Positions 22,357 through 29,420 of a stretch of 33,489 nucleotides of DNA are shown piece after piece. The stretch's first letter is position 1, and each line of letters opens with the position of its first letter. The stretch covers positions 1-33,489 of the forward strand of contig JAUWYR010000026.1 of assembly GCA_030615745.1 (NCBI GenBank), in the 5' to 3' direction. The notes under the pieces were generated by a model. That model saw only the letters and a list, made by a program, of their open reading frames with translations. It searched no databases and was not told the origin of the DNA. The stretch is from Candidatus Zixiibacteriota bacterium (GTDB lineage: Bacteria; Zixibacteria; MSB-5A5; SM23-73-2). A program made the position numbers and the translations under genes.

Positions 22357-24885
22357 TCAGTTACAAGGTGGTGGACCACCTTTAAGCAGATAGTTAGCTA
22401 AGTAAATGACGTCACCAAGATTTATCTTATCATCACAGTTCACATCTCCAGATTCTAAAGGCTGGGGCTCTGGTCCGCCTTTTAGCAAATAATTTGCCAG
22501 ATATATAACATCAGATAAGTTTATCTTCCAGTCGCCGTTAGCATCTCCTTTCAAATACTCGACAGAGTTATAGATGAAAGTATCAGGCTCATCTGGAGAA
22601 GGAGATGGTTGATTATCTGCCAAAAGTACCATGTCGCTCCCATCGATCCTTACCCCTAAGTCGTACTCACCGGTATCAGCTGGTTCAGCCACAACTTCAA
22701 TTAGATAATCACCAACTAAACGATTGGGCATAGTGACTAAGTCATCTAAATCTCCATCGTCGTTTAAATCTTGAGTGGTATCATAAGTTGCATCCGGGAT
22801 GGTGTTGAAATCTATACCAATGGAAGCACCAATTGGATCGATGATAATTAAATCTACTGGTGAGTAAGCTGCTACTACCAAGGTATCAGTCAAAAAGGAT
22901 TGATCAGAAACCATCACTTTGACAGGGATATAGACGCTATCGTTTCCTCCCTCATCATTCGACATGATTCGAATCGTGTCTACCAACAAAGTCTCAGCAT
23001 AAGTAAAAGCATCGATGGTCACCTCAATAAATTTCGGGCAAGCACCTTCTGGCAAAGAAAAACTGGTAGGCCGTAGATCAAGCCAATCAGCAGTTTCGAT
23101 CAAATTACCCATTAAGGTAGTAGTTCCAATATTTCTTATCCAAAAAGTCTCAACCGTTGTGCCACCGTTTTCAACAGCAAGCCAAAATTCCTTTGGAGCC
23201 CAATCGATTCGTGCTACAGCAGACACTGTAAGAGTATCCACCTTTTCTTTCTTATACATCACATAATTTTCTGTATAGATAACCCCCTGCTCCTCATCAA
23301 CTACACCTGCATCCCTGTCCAATATGTACTGGATATGCATAAAGCTGTCCACCCGGGTTGCTAAGGAGGGCCAGGCCTCGGAGTCACAATTACCAGCAGG
23401 GCACCCAGGAGACGGTGTTTGGGTAAGGTTTTTTGGCGTATGCCAGGTAAGACCGAGATTGGTGGAGAAGGAGAAATAAAGCTCCCCATTGCTATACCCA
23501 GAAGCTGATAGGTCATCATCGTCAAACTGTTGCCATACACAGAATAGCCAGCCCTGTTTTTCTGACCCAGGAATTCCAATACCTACACTCATCTTGGATA
23601 TAAGCCTGTTCCAAGCCCAGGGATTGGTGTGAGTTCCATCTGACTTGCGAGTCGCCACCACAGTATACCTCACTGTGTCATCGCCAGGACATACCAGCTC
23701 TATATTCGGGCTCCAGTGCATCAACTTAACATCATAGGGGTCATATTTTCCAATCGCCTCCCTCAGATAGTGAGCATTCCAGAAAATATGAAGATTGTGA
23801 TCTAAATCATAAACACCAGCAAGGTCACAATAAGTCCTGTAAGGGTCATTCGATTTCCATCTGGTGATATTGGTATAGGTAAAATCACCAAAGGTATCTG
23901 CATGAATCCAGTCATTCCCACAGCTATCCGACTCAATATACCAGACATCCTGGGCAATTTGGCACTGAGAAGTGTCGTCAGAAACAGGCCAGTTTTCAGT
24001 CCACTTTGTCCAGACCAGAGCTACTTTCTTGGAGTGTGGGTCTGTTGTTACAATATAGCTTTCACATGAAGTGTGGTCGAGATAAGAAACCAAAGAACCG
24101 GGTTGGCAGAACTGGTCTGCGGTAATATAATAAGGTCCTCTTCCTGGACCCTCACATCTTAAAAGGTTCCCTTCTGGAGTACAACGAACATAGCCTATAG
24201 GATATGTCCCATGTGCAATTATACCTTCAAGTGCCAGAACATGAATATTACCGCAGGAATCTATACCTCCGTGAGGCCACATCCCTGCTTCCTCCATCGT
24301 CTCAGTAGAGTCAGGTATATCATATAGCACAAATTCGCCTGCACCTGGAGTAGCAGATGTGTCTATGGCGATCATGGTTCTCCTGGGACTTGGCTCAGGA
24401 TATTTTGCTGCGGTGGTATGATAAATCACAGCAATATGACTGTCCAAGAAAATATCAAGACCAGCAAATCCAGTAGAAACACTATCAACTGCGACCTTAT
24501 TTTGCCAGCTACCACCTGTATCATTATATCTGTAATTTACATAACGCGAGACTGGAGGTTCAGCAGGCCATTCCGTCCAGCAGAAATGCTGTCCATTGAT
24601 TCCACCCTGGTAATCGTTGGCTATCATCTTCGGCATTGAGCAAGGTTGCTGAGGTTCATACCAAGTGGTGCCGACAATGGCATCCGCAGTAGGTCTGAAC
24701 GAACTCGGAACATAACCTGTTGGTGACTTTAACAAATATTGCGAAATATAATTCTCCGGTGTAGAGTCAATCGGCTTCAAAAGCTCAGATTTCCGAACAG
24801 TAGATTTCTCAGCAAAAGCAAAACCAAAAACCAGAACCGAAAATACCAAGAAGAAAGCAAAAACTAACAAAACTTTTCTTGACAT
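22357..24885 (-). CDS. large secreted BNR-propeller-like protein with BACON-like domain and dockerin
   Basis: An 842-aa exported protein. The frame is open 19 codons further upstream, but the ATG at 24885 has AGGAGG 6 bases before it and opens a clean signal peptide (MSRKVLLVFAFFLVFSVLVFGFAFA), so I take that start. Residues about 45-560 are rich in Trp, Asp and Gly and contain sialidase/BNR-type pieces (GELYFSFSTNLGLTWHTPKNLT, KVALVWTKWTENWP, NLHIFWNAHYLREA), suggesting a six-bladed propeller; catalytic sialidase arginines are not obvious. About 565-680 is a BACON/ASH-like beta domain (WLDLRPTSFSLPEG). A two-repeat dockerin (about 775-842) ends the protein. The substrate is unknown. It would be surface-exposed or released, possibly a binding or glycan-processing component. 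Confidence 0.8.
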   Translation of the reverse strand: MSRKVLLVFAFFLVFSVLVFGFAFAEKSTVRKSELLKPIDSTPENYISQYLLKSPTGYVPSSFRPTADAIVGTTWYEPQQPCSMPKMIANDYQGGINGQHFCWTEWPAEPPVSRYVNYRYNDTGGSWQNKVAVDSVSTGFAGLDIFLDSHIAVIYHTTAAKYPEPSPRRTMIAIDTSATPGAGEFVLYDIPDSTETMEEAGMWPHGGIDSCGNIHVLALEGIIAHGTYPIGYVRCTPEGNLLRCEGPGRGPYYITADQFCQPGSLVSYLDHTSCESYIVTTDPHSKKVALVWTKWTENWPVSDDTSQCQIAQDVWYIESDSCGNDWIHADTFGDFTYTNITRWKSNDPYRTYCDLAGVYDLDHNLHIFWNAHYLREAIGKYDPYDVKLMHWSPNIELVCPGDDTVRYTVVATRKSDGTHTNPWAWNRLISKMSVGIGIPGSEKQGWLFCVWQQFDDDDLSASGYSNGELYFSFSTNLGLTWHTPKNLTQTPSPGCPAGNCDSEAWPSLATRVDSFMHIQYILDRDAGVVDEEQGVIYTENYVMYKKEKVDTLTVSAVARIDWAPKEFWLAVENGGTTVETFWIRNIGTTTLMGNLIETADWLDLRPTSFSLPEGACPKFIEVTIDAFTYAETLLVDTIRIMSNDEGGNDSVYIPVKVMVSDQSFLTDTLVVAAYSPVDLIIIDPIGASIGIDFNTIPDATYDTTQDLNDDGDLDDLVTMPNRLVGDYLIEVVAEPADTGEYDLGVRIDGSDMVLLADNQPSPSPDEPDTFIYNSVEYLKGDANGDWKINLSDVIYLANYLLKGGPEPQPLESGDVNCDDKINLGDVIYLANYLLKGGPPPCN

Positions 24886-24900
24886 CTCTGCCTCCTCTCT

Positions 24901-24930
24901 GTTAGGTTGATATAAAAAGGTTAACCTAAC
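24901..24930 (-). promoter_or_regulatory. inverted repeat in the leader of the BNR-like gene
   Basis: GTTAGGTT (24901-24908) and AACCTAAC (24923-24930) form a perfect 8-bp inverted repeat with a 14-base centre, 16 bases before the chosen start codon. It could be an operator or an mRNA hairpin. Confidence 0.35.
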
Positions 24931-25098
24931 CCCATCCCGCATTCACTCTTTTCTACTCTTTTAACCTCACCTCCTTGTATTATAAATAAGGTTTTTGTTA
25001 ATAGAAAAAAAGGGTAAACATTGCCAAAAAAAACATAAAAAAGAGAAACAAAATTAGAACCCCTATGTTTACTCTTTAAGTTTTAAAAGACTCTTTTT

Positions 25099-25280: not shown

Positions 25281-25494
25281 CTATTGAGTTGACTTTTTAT
25301 ATTTTCATTGTTTGGGTCAGCCTGCCCAGCCAGGGGGGACCCGACCAGCACAGAGGTTTTTTAAGAGTTATCTAAAGTCTTTTAAATAATTCTTGACATT
25401 CAAAAGATTGTAATACAAATTAGAAAAAAAACAGCCTACCGAGATTTGTTCTATGATTAAAAGAATTAAACCATAAAGAAGATAAGGAGAAAAA

Positions 25495-28400
25495 GTGCAG
25501 GAAAAACTTATCTCCAAAGATTTCAGGTTCATCTTTATCTGTGTTATCATCTGTGCGGTCTCCCTTTTGATAGGAATTAAGTATTTTTCCAAAGTATTTC
25601 CTGAGGCAACAATCGATTTCAAAATTACAAGAGAAGAATCTGTCCCTATAGCAGAAAATTTTATAAAGGAAAAGGGGTTGGATATATCTGGTTACCGGCA
25701 TGCTGTGATTTTTTCTCATGATGATATTGCCAAGGTATTTTTAGAAAAAGAATTAGGCTTGGAAAAAGCACAAGATATAATGGGGAAAAAAGTTAAACTC
25801 TGGAGGTGGAGCAACAGGTGGTTTAAGCCTCTAAAAAAAGAGGAGTTTAAAGTTTTTGTTTCCCCAGAAGGGGAGATAATAAGATTTGAGCATCTTTTAC
25901 CTGAAGAAGCTTCCGGTGAAGATCTTTTAAAAGAGGATGCACAAAAAGTCGCAGAAGATTTTCTGTCCAAGACTATGGGTAAAGATTTAGATAGCCTTGA
26001 GTTTGTTTCAGCCTCATCTGAGAAGCGTCCCAAAAGAACAGACCATACTTTCATCTGGAAAGAAAAAGGATTCGATATTAAGGATGCTACTTATAGATAT
26101 AAAGTCACTGTTTTAGGAGATAAAATCGGAGGTTACAAAGAATTTTTAAAAGTTCCTGATAAATGGAAAAGGTCTTATCATAAACTTCGTTCCCTGAATG
26201 AAACTACCTCACAGGTAGCAGCTTTCTTTCTTTTATTAACTATGTTAGCTTTAGTTTTTGTGTTTTTGGTCAGAGTTAGAAACAGGGATATAAAATGGAA
26301 GACCGCTTTAATCTTTGGAATTGTTGCTTTTATATTAACCTTCCTTTCACAATTAAATGCCCTACCTTTGACTGAGTTTGCCTACAAGACTACAGAATCT
26401 TATGGAAGCTTTTTGACAAAAAGTATTTTGATTGGTCTTTTAGCCTCCCTGGGTGTGGGGGTATTTATAATGTTTTTAACCGCAGGGGCTGAGCCTTTGT
26501 ATCGGCAACATTATAAAAAGAAAATATCTTTAACCAATCTTTTCAGATGGAGGGGAATAAGAACTAAAAAGTTCTTCTTAACTTTAATCTTAGGATTCAC
26601 CTTAACCTTTTTCTTTTTCGCTTACCAGATTATCTTTTACCTTATCGCAGGCAAATTCGGCGCCTGGGCACCGGCGGAGATACCATATTCGGATATGCTC
26701 AACACCGCCATCCCCTGGATTTTTGTTTTGTTGATAGGATTTTTTCCTGCGGTTTCAGAGGAATTTATCTCCAGGATGTTCTCCATTCCATTTTTCCAGA
26801 AATATTTAAAATTGGGCTGGCTTGGAATTGTTATTCCCGCTTTTATCTGGGGATTCGCTCATGCTAACTATCCTAATCAGCCTTTTTTCATTCGAGGATT
26901 GGAGGTTGGGTTTGCTGGAATAATAATTGGAATCATTATGATAAGGTATAATATCTTAGCACTTTTGGTCTGGCACTACACTGTGGATGCTTTATACACA
27001 GCCTTCCTTTTGTTCAGGTCAGGAAATTTATATTTTATGGTCTCAGCTGGAATAACAACCGGGATATTGCTTATTCCACTTGTGGTTGCTTTAGTCGCTT
27101 ATTTGAGAACAAAAAGATTTGAAAAAGAGGATGAGCTTTTAAATGAGGTTGAGGGGACCAAAGCTCCTTTAAAAGTTGAAGAAAAAGTAAAAGAGGAAAT
27201 TTTCGAGGTGCCTTATAAACCCTTGCCCAAAAAAAGGATTATTTTGGGCGTTGTTCTAATAGGTGCTTTGTTATGTTTATACTTTGTAAAAGCTGAGAGG
27301 TTTGGAGACTTCGTAGATTTTTCTATAACTAAAAATAAGGCAAAGTTGATTTCAGATGATTTTCTCAAAAACAAAGGGGTAAATCCGAATGAGTTCAGAA
27401 AAGTGACCATCACCAATAACATATTTAACAAATATAAGGGAAAATACATTCTCGAAAGAAAAGGGATTTTAGGTTTGAATCAGGTTTATGGGGAAAATCT
27501 TTCAGGATTTCGGTGGCTTACAAGATACTATAAGCCTCTAAAAAAGGAAGAATACAGGGTGTATATTGACCCTAAAAAAAGTGATGTTATATCCTTTGAG
27601 CATATCGTAGCAGAAGAAAAAGAGGGAGCCTTTAAAGATTTAGATTCTGCTTTGGTTATTGCCCAAAACTTTATCCAGAGCAAAGGAATCGATCTTGAAA
27701 GGTTTGAACTTAAAGAGTCCACATCAGAAAAAAGAAAGAATAGAGTTGATCACAAATTTGTCTGGGAAGCCAAAGAAGATGACTTAAGAAATGTCGATCA
27801 GGCTAAATTCAGGATAATATTAAATATTCAAGGAGATGAGGTCTCTTTCTTTAAAAAGAAAATGAAGATACCTGAGAAATGGAGACGGGAAAGAGAAAAA
27901 AGCACACTTTTAGGAGCGGTAAGGTTTGGGACAAAGATAGTTTTGATTGCACTCTTTGCAGGATACTCTGTTCTCTTTTTAGTGAGAAAGGTTAGAGCTG
28001 GAGAGATGAGGTGGAAAAAAATTATTCTTTTGAGCTTGATACCTGCTGGTTTGGTTTTACTCTCCTTTATAAATGAGTTCTCCTCTATCTATCAGTCATA
28101 TCCTACATCCATTCCTTTGAACGTTTTCACCATCTCAGCACTTGTTGGATTTTTAATCGGTATTATCGGTGTGTTTATTCTGTCTTCTTTTTCTTTTGGG
28201 GTTATATCATCGTTTTATCCGAACTGGTCATCTTTTTTCAAAAAAACTATCAAGAAAAAGTTAGCTTTAGATGCTCTGATCTGTGCAATCTTTTCAACAG
28301 GATTATTTTTGGGTATAACAAAGCTAACTAATATATTAGTATTCAAATTTAACACCATAGCTTTAATCTCTGCACTCTCAATTCCGGGGAATATCGATAC

Positions 28401-28842
28401 ATATCTCCCTTTTGTCTCCTATTTGAGCGATATTGTTTTCAAAAGCATTTTGCTTTTAGCTATAATCGGGGCTGTGGTTTTCTTTACAACAAATTATTTC
28501 AAAAAGTTCTGGCACTGGATTATCTTAGTTCCACTTATACTTTTTGCTTTTGTTTCCGGGGATGCCAAGACAACACCTGAATTTTTGTTCGATGCCATCA
28601 TTTTAGTGATCTGGATAGTTCCATTTTTCCTTTTGATCAAATGGTTTTTAAGAAATAATATATTAGCCTATTCGCTTTCTGTATTCTCCATCTTAAGTTT
28701 AAAAGGATTTTCAAACTTAGTTTCTCAGAAAGCAAGCTTTTATCAATTGAATGGTATTATATTGGGAATAGTGATTTTGATTCCTTTTATCTTGCTTTTG
28801 TTAGACTCACTTTCCCAAAAAGGTGAAGTTAAAAAGATATAA
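25495..28842 (+). CDS. internally duplicated CPBP-family (CAAX-like) membrane protease
   Basis: A 1115-aa polytopic inner-membrane protein starting at GTG behind AAGGAG. It is built from two homologous halves. Each has one N-terminal membrane segment (12-29; 581-599), a soluble PepSY-like extracytoplasmic module of about 200 aa (41-235; 608-805) and a bundle of membrane helices. The modules align clearly: WFKPLKKEEFKVFVSPEGEIIRFEH (110-133) with YYKPLKKEEYRVYIDPKKSDVISFEH, and SSEKRPKRTDHTFIWKEK with TSEKRKNRVDHKFVWEAK. The first half keeps CPBP catalytic motifs: Glu422-Glu423 with Arg427 (EEFISR), His456 in FAHANYP and His494 in WHYTVDAL. The second half has lost them and is probably regulatory. 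Substrate unknown. The LiaF-like gene follows 23 bases later, so an envelope-stress role is plausible. Confidence 0.85.
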   Translation: MQEKLISKDFRFIFICVIICAVSLLIGIKYFSKVFPEATIDFKITREESVPIAENFIKEKGLDISGYRHAVIFSHDDIAKVFLEKELGLEKAQDIMGKKVKLWRWSNRWFKPLKKEEFKVFVSPEGEIIRFEHLLPEEASGEDLLKEDAQKVAEDFLSKTMGKDLDSLEFVSASSEKRPKRTDHTFIWKEKGFDIKDATYRYKVTVLGDKIGGYKEFLKVPDKWKRSYHKLRSLNETTSQVAAFFLLLTMLALVFVFLVRVRNRDIKWKTALIFGIVAFILTFLSQLNALPLTEFAYKTTESYGSFLTKSILIGLLASLGVGVFIMFLTAGAEPLYRQHYKKKISLTNLFRWRGIRTKKFFLTLILGFTLTFFFFAYQIIFYLIAGKFGAWAPAEIPYSDMLNTAIPWIFVLLIGFFPAVSEEFISRMFSIPFFQKYLKLGWLGIVIPAFIWGFAHANYPNQPFFIRGLEVGFAGIIIGIIMIRYNILALLVWHYTVDALYTAFLLFRSGNLYFMVSAGITTGILLIPLVVALVAYLRTKRFEKEDELLNEVEGTKAPLKVEEKVKEEIFEVPYKPLPKKRIILGVVLIGALLCLYFVKAERFGDFVDFSITKNKAKLISDDFLKNKGVNPNEFRKVTITNNIFNKYKGKYILERKGILGLNQVYGENLSGFRWLTRYYKPLKKEEYRVYIDPKKSDVISFEHIVAEEKEGAFKDLDSALVIAQNFIQSKGIDLERFELKESTSEKRKNRVDHKFVWEAKEDDLRNVDQAKFRIILNIQGDEVSFFKKKMKIPEKWRREREKSTLLGAVRFGTKIVLIALFAGYSVLFLVRKVRAGEMRWKKIILLSLIPAGLVLLSFINEFSSIYQSYPTSIPLNVFTISALVGFLIGIIGVFILSSFSFGVISSFYPNWSSFFKKTIKKKLALDALICAIFSTGLFLGITKLTNILVFKFNTIALISALSIPGNIDTYLPFVSYLSDIVFKSILLLAIIGAVVFFTTNYFKKFWHWIILVPLILFAFVSGDAKTTPEFLFDAIILVIWIVPFFLLIKWFLRNNILAYSLSVFSILSLKGFSNLVSQKASFYQLNGIILGIVILIPFILLLLDSLSQKGEVKKI

Positions 28843-28865
28843 ATGAACTATACCAGGAGGATAAA

Positions 28866-29420
28866 ATGGGGAAAAATTTCGGCACTATAATTTTTGGTTT
28901 GATATTAGTTTTATTAGGAGGATTGATTCTTTTAGATAACTTAGGGGCTTTAGAATTCTGGAAGGTTTTAGGTAATATCTGGCCAATCATTCTCGTAATT
29001 TTAGGTGTATGGCTTATATTCCAGAGAGCACAGCCCGATTATGCTCAAGCCCCGGCAAAATTAAGCAAAGGTTTTGGAAATATTTTTTTAAATCCTAAAA
29101 GTATAGAGCCTGAAGGGTTGCTGGTCAACTCCGGCTTCGGGGACGTTGAAATCAATCTAACTAAAACTGGTCTTTTAGATAAAGAGAATTTGGTTAATAT
29201 AAATCTTGGTTTTGGAGACATAAAAGTTTTACTTCCTGAAGGCTTGCCTATTTTAGCTTCAGGTAATTCCTTTGCTGGAAAGATAGAGATTTTGGGTAAG
29301 ATGGCAGATGGTATAGGTAATAAAGTTGAGTATGAGGATGAGGGATACGGTTCTGCAACCAAAAAGCTAAAGATAGCCACAAAATTAGGATTCGGAGATA
29401 TAAGGATTTTTCGAGCTTGA
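28866..29420 (+). CDS. LiaF-like membrane protein (LiaI/LiaF TM region plus C-terminal beta domain)
   Basis: A 184-aa protein behind AGGAGG. Two hydrophobic segments (about 5-26 and 34-53) with LLGGLILLDNLG and WPIILVILGVWLIF are typical of the LiaI/LiaF-type transmembrane region (DUF5668-like). Residues 80-184 form a short repetitive beta domain with three GFGD signatures (SGFGDVEINL, LGFGDIKVLLPEG, LGFGDIRIF), as in the LiaF C-terminal domain, known from cell-envelope stress response systems where it inhibits a sensor kinase. No kinase or regulator adjoins it. Probably cotranscribed with the duplicated CPBP protease. Confidence 0.82.
   Translation: MGKNFGTIIFGLILVLLGGLILLDNLGALEFWKVLGNIWPIILVILGVWLIFQRAQPDYAQAPAKLSKGFGNIFLNPKSIEPEGLLVNSGFGDVEINLTKTGLLDKENLVNINLGFGDIKVLLPEGLPILASGNSFAGKIEILGKMADGIGNKVEYEDEGYGSATKKLKIATKLGFGDIRIFRA

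Follow-up and report, generated by a model that had tools for sequence, protein, structure and literature searches.

Why does a single membrane protein carry two halves built like an intramembrane protease, only one of which has the residues expected of an enzyme? The question is raised by a long gene in the window (the whole stretch of 33,489 nucleotides that was analysed), taken in a preliminary description for a giant CPBP protease made by internal duplication. By hydropathy, each half begins with one transmembrane (TM) segment, followed by a soluble module of about 200 aa and then by roughly nine hydrophobic segments that make up a helix bundle (Table 1). Because basic residues flank the TM segments, as in positive-inside loops, both modules are predicted to lie outside the membrane, and the inter-half linker (and the phosphatase in the fusion relatives described below) in the cytoplasm. 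The full-length AlphaFold model, built with three sequences, had a pLDDT of 38.6 and was too poor to use, and the AF2 model of half 2 (overall pLDDT 58.7) was usable for the soluble module only. The Pfam scan of the window protein found no PP2C/SpoIIE domain, and a plasmid search gave no match.

Table 1. Features of the two-half gene and its downstream neighbour, with positions in the window.
Feature	Position	Strand	Evidence or remark
Whole gene, 1115-aa two-half membrane protein	25495..28842	+	GTG start at 25495; RBS AAGGAG at 25484-25489
Half 1 TM1 (aa 10-28)	25522..25578	+	Hydropathy
Half 1 tandem module, likely PepSY-like, predicted extracytoplasmic (aa 38-235; DUF4901/PF16244 at aa 104-196)	25606..26199	+	Pfam, alignment; outside location predicted
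Half 1 TM2-TM4 (aa 236-344)	26200..26526	+	Hydropathy; homologous to half 2
Half 1 intact CPBP/Rce1 core (aa 345-540; PF02517 at aa 407-499)	26527..27114	+	Pfam E=1.5e-9
Half 1 motif 1, EExxxR (E422, E423, R427)	26758..26775	+	Kept in 18/18
Half 1 motif 2 His (H456)	26860..26862	+	Kept in 18/18
Half 1 motif 3, HxxxD (H494, D498)	26974..26988	+	Kept in 18/18
Inter-half linker, predicted cytoplasmic (aa 541-578)	27115..27228	+	Charged, flanked by TM segments
Half 2 TM1' (aa 582-600)	27238..27294	+	Hydropathy
Half 2 second tandem module, likely PepSY-like (aa 606-800)	27310..27894	+	Alignments; AF2 blocks mostly pLDDT 67-89; Foldseek to YpeB
Half 2 TM2'-TM4' (aa 801-909)	27895..28221	+	Hydropathy; matches the half 1 profile at 98.1%
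Half 2 degenerate core, catalytic residues absent (aa 910-1115)	28222..28839	+	No motif in 17/17; least conserved region; weak CPBP homology
LiaF-like gene (184 aa)	28866..29420	+	LiaF-like_C E=2e-20; own RBS at 28855-28860; 23-nt gap

Residues 1-590 and 591-1115 align with each other over 451 aa at 28% identity (BLASTP, 142 bits, E=9e-41), and a half 1 profile of five proteins matches a half 2 profile of four with 100% probability (E=3e-48, 466 columns). In a region-by-region comparison, for which each half was aligned independently with about 16 proteins, the soluble modules matched at 100% (5e-42) and the TM2-4 regions at 98.1% (8e-14); the similarity is not confined to the soluble module, and the internal duplication proposed earlier is borne out. 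The direct comparison of the two CPBP cores (the last ~200 aa) is weak (24.8%, 8e-4), and several half 2 matches to the half 1 profile end near position 320-340, as would be expected if the duplication were limited to TM1, the PepSY-like module and TM2-4 and half 2 ended in ~200 aa of unrelated helix bundle, not strictly a dead protease half. However, five proteins match up to profile position 523-534, the two cores agree in size and helix count, and the core of related proteins fused to a SpoIIE domain (see below) matches both the half 1 core (98.9%, 2e-17) and the half 2 core (84%, 7e-6). We regard so limited a duplication as improbable; on these profile matches the C-terminal ~200 aa of half 2 are probably homologous to the CPBP core, and most likely the whole unit was duplicated and the second core then decayed. 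All second halves group together in the tree (support 77), and separate duplications in the two clades described below were not rejected by the AU test (p 0.295 and 0.427). An old, internal duplication is the best explanation of the two halves. A recent assembly duplication, a chimera or another assembly or annotation artefact would account for the internal repeat itself and for nothing else; it is refuted, and can practically be dismissed, since the halves are so dissimilar, the identical architecture recurs in independent assemblies (14 complete and 4 partial independent genes) and both halves are under purifying selection.

Whole-genome scans identified the gene in an SM23_73_2 Zixibacteria genome of the window's own genus (L002, 77% identical) and in a record labelled Actinomycetota (L003, JAACEJ010000233.1, 47% identical). 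The latter label fits poorly, as the entire phylum of L003's genome comprises only 82 genomes in the collection; 45 of these contain relatives. The home phylum has relatives in 4 of 132 genomes: two belong to the window's genus, one (G076) has its gene split over two contigs and one (G097) has a single half. The two-half gene itself was found in 18 genomes of two phyla, the complete copies measuring 1099-1154 aa and the other four being partial or split, so that the architecture extends to a second phylum; its genes form two deep clades (I and II) in the tree. No NCBIfam model matches above cut-off, in keeping with the earlier view that the architecture is not a textbook one. One copy (L059, G212:C106) shows an apparent frameshift near its start, with overlapping frames of 1052 and 193 aa. 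Upstream of the two-half gene in L046-L049 lie conserved genes for a CHASE2-nucleotide cyclase (L048:10052-12250), a SpoU-type rRNA methylase and a D-Ala-D-Ala-ligase-like protein, the last assigned by sequence reading only. Two stand-alone halves (L057 and L065) have intact catalytic motifs. At L065:1373-6449 (= L005), the live stand-alone half lies between radical-SAM and ABC transporter genes on one strand, a locus that looks like a peptide-maturation (RiPP) operon.

The contrast between the two halves is sharpest in their cores. Scanned alone, half 1 scored 38.5 bits against PF02517 (cut-off 22.4), and the window protein scored 43.6 bits in the genome scan, whereas half 2 gave no PF02517 match at E<=1. 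The preliminary description held that only the first half keeps EExxxR, FxxxH and the third-motif His; this is correct for E422/E423/R427, H456 and H494, and the second motif needs correction, reading WGFAH (WxxxH) in the window and FxxxH in the second clade. In 18/18 two-half genes the first half keeps EExxxR, the motif-2 His and HxxxD, and in 17/17 the second half lacks the catalytic residues, which agrees with the proposed pairing of an apparently active with an apparently inactive half. As this pattern is constant across all 18 relatives, the idea of a live and a dead half is stronger than the single sequence allowed. Conservation is inverted between the halves: within clade I, mean pairwise identity rises along half 1 from 55% in the module and 57% in TM2-4 to 70% in the core, and falls along half 2 from 49% to 39% and 33%. 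Clade II shows the same inversion (half 1 core 62%, half 2 core 29%), while the half 2 outside module still retains 48-49% mean pairwise identity within the clades. Purifying selection acts on half 2, at a dN/dS of 0.10-0.18 compared with 0.06-0.12 for half 1, and because its dN/dS is low and its core conservation is inverted relative to half 1, it appears to be selected, though not for catalysis. A conserved outside module joined to a decayed core is the pattern expected of a retained pseudoenzyme. Catalysis by half 1 is indicated by the full set of catalytic residues in all 18 genes and by a core that is the most conserved region of that half.

The half 1 module matches DUF4901 (the YcdB/YcdC repeated domain) in Pfam with 34 bits against a cut-off of 27 (E=3.7e-8), and the half 2 module stays below that cut-off at 12.9 bits. 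The model of the half 2 module, in which most 10-residue blocks have a pLDDT of 67-89, falling to about 50 around residues 60-80, contains two helix-plus-sheet repeats. For this module Foldseek ranks the YpeB PepSY domain 5boi first (probability 1.00, E=0.017, TMt 0.46) and YpmB lower, whereas a search of solved structures by sequence, run with the profiles of the two halves, gave no match. Because the YpeB PepSY domain tops the Foldseek results for the modelled half 2 module, the modules are likely PepSY-like. The twin PepSY-like extracytoplasmic modules described earlier are thus supported by DUF4901 in half 1, by the YpeB-like predicted fold in half 2 and by the close profile match between the two.

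The downstream LiaF-like gene, in which a clue to function had been seen, is real and probably forms an operon with the two-half gene. Its presence beside that gene is confined to the window and the same-genus L002, and none of the other mapped loci gave a match. We therefore rejected this neighbour as a functional clue and treat it as a local association within the window's genus. On the other side, divergent to the two-half gene, window positions 22357-24942 (minus strand) encode an 861-aa secreted-looking protein that ends in two dockerin-like repeats (GDANGDWKINLSDVIYLANYLLKGG).

The recurring partner of the two-half gene is instead a SpoIIE-type PP2C phosphatase, both by adjacency and, in a sister subfamily, by fusion. 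In the second phylum, proteins of ~815-880 aa combine one half with a SpoIIE PP2C domain at the C-terminus (Pfam E~1e-50 in four). A local profile placed such SpoIIE-fused single halves in at least 12 genomes, and both motif histidines are lost in every protein aligned. The fusion loci (L026-L038 and L062-L064, e.g. L062:5724-8177, minus strand) are widespread in the phylum of L003's genome; the copy in L033 has an in-frame TGA. Behind the fusion gene of L062 come genes for a STAS protein, an RsbW-like HATPase and two more SpoIIE proteins, and HATPase genes also adjoin the fusions in L063 and L036. In L003, L048, L049 and L058, the two-half gene is immediately followed on the same strand by a SpoIIE phosphatase gene of ~400 aa; these are 4 of the 8 clade I loci with a visible downstream gene, and no clade II locus shows the arrangement. 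A full-length counterpart of this phosphatase, at 39% identity, is encoded on another contig of the window's genome. Among the 132 genomes of the home phylum, the phosphatase is present only in the two with a clade I two-half gene (G000 and G109), a co-occurrence that rests on one genus; in the other phylum it is found in about 60 of the 82 genomes, whether or not the two-half gene is present. In the phosphatase tree, the copies of the window's genus do not nest among those adjacent to two-half genes; for this reason co-evolution of the two genes was dropped and co-occurrence alone is claimed.

To our knowledge, the regulation of prokaryotic CPBP proteases is largely unknown. We tentatively read the window protein as a signal-gated CPBP/Rce1 intramembrane glutamic protease with a built-in pseudoprotease, which would feed or run parallel to SpoIIE/RsbU-type partner switching; that the protein is a signal-gated protease, as proposed earlier, is a reasonable inference. 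Half 1 would be the enzyme and half 2 a catalytically dead copy kept as its pseudoprotease partner. The two tandem PepSY-like modules may detect or bind a peptide or a component of the envelope outside the cell, and the paired halves could control access to the half 1 active site, with the dead half restraining or positioning the live one. Coupling to SpoIIE-type partner switching would then come from cleavage of a substrate in the membrane or from a conformational signal, so that the output might feed, or parallel, a SpoIIE/RsbU-type phosphatase pathway. This link is suggested by the sister proteins, in which a dead half-module is the putative membrane sensor fused to SpoIIE phosphatases, and by the relatives whose two-half gene has a SpoIIE phosphatase gene immediately behind it. 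Counting against the pathway are the partial adjacency, the frequency of the phosphatase in the other phylum irrespective of the two-half gene, the phosphatase tree, and the L065 half, which is found in a RiPP-like operon instead. More broadly, and with greater reserve, one may envisage an envelope-sensor family with three forms of a PepSY-CPBP module: live on its own, a live and a dead copy in a single chain, or dead and joined to SpoIIE. A protease architecture would here have become a partner-switching input, and the two-half protein would be gated by its own pseudoprotease half.

As the main alternative, the same anatomy could belong to a processing or sorting protease of the myxosortase or bacteriocin/RiPP type, in which half 2 and the PepSY-like modules recruit or present membrane-anchored or secreted substrates, as proposed for APH-1 with presenilin, and no signalling is involved. 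There is precedent for both components of this reading, given that MrtX, the prokaryotic CPBP protease known from experiment, acts in sorting (PMC11980579), and that APH-1 and LnsB, which have the CPBP fold without catalytic residues, are discussed as partners of other enzymes (PMC7387801); the radical-SAM and ABC transporter genes flanking the live half of L065 would suit it as well. We nevertheless consider it rather unlikely, as no conserved substrate-like gene adjoins the two-half gene in the mapped loci, the sisters use the same half, with catalysis lost, as the apparent input domain of a signalling phosphatase, and no NCBIfam equivalog matches above cut-off, the only match being a core-only one, far below cut-off, to an ABC permease/CPBP fusion. 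A mainly non-proteolytic envelope regulator or chaperone, with PepSY-like modules that hold or inhibit a cell-wall enzyme and membrane parts that serve as a scaffold, would agree with the nearest predicted fold of the module and with the precedents of YpeB, which stabilises SleB and whose N-terminal part inhibits SleB in vitro (PMC6660665), and of SpdC/LyrA, a CPBP relative regarded in the literature as almost certainly no protease (PMC7387801). This reading has little probability in our view, because the complete catalytic residues of half 1 in 18/18 genes, and a core that is the best conserved region of that half, point to catalysis. The signal-gated protease thus remains our preferred, though tentative, reading. 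An enzyme and its pseudoenzyme partner in one chain, with the same module wired to a phosphatase elsewhere, would make the roles of the dead half and of the PepSY-like modules testable by mutation and domain swap; if the proposal is true, it would also suggest that RsbU/SpoIIE phosphatases of little-studied phyla have an input domain of a new class.

The fold and the catalytic family are already known, whereas the tandem chain of a seemingly live and a seemingly dead half with PepSY-like modules, together with its dead SpoIIE-fused sisters, is unmatched by any NCBIfam model. An open-literature search, with most subscription papers outside its scope, found no report joining CPBP and SpoIIE and none naming CPBP, intramembrane protease and PepSY together. 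Half 1 shares its profile, EExxxR, [FW]xxxH and the third-motif His with the CPBP/type II CAAX proteases (Rce1-like, PF02517; MmRce1, MrtX), with a third motif that reads HxxxD and not HxxxN; the named characterised members MmRce1 and MrtX are single bundles without a PepSY-like module, whereas the window protein is doubled and its second copy apparently dead. The ABC permease/CPBP fusions (NF041647) likewise end a larger membrane protein in a CPBP core, to which their match is limited (32.9 bits against a cut-off of 435). YpeB/YpmB-type PepSY proteins (the Foldseek match being to the C-terminal domain of YpeB) and DUF4901 proteins (YcdB/YcdC) probably share with the window protein the tandem alpha/beta PepSY-like repeats outside the membrane but lack the protease bundle, and the window modules have no sequence-level match to any solved chain. 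In the CPBP-fold pseudoenzymes SpdC/LyrA and LnsB of S. aureus and APH-1 of gamma-secretase, a catalysis-free bundle is likewise kept as a partner or regulator; these are separate polypeptides, whereas here the live and the dead copy share a single chain, or else a dead copy carries SpoIIE as a fusion. With SpoIIE/RsbU/SiaA-type PP2C phosphatases the likeness lies in the sister proteins, which carry the SpoIIE domain behind the half, some beside STAS and HATPase genes; the window protein differs in having no phosphatase domain, and the sensor of its sisters would be a CPBP-like pseudoprotease module.
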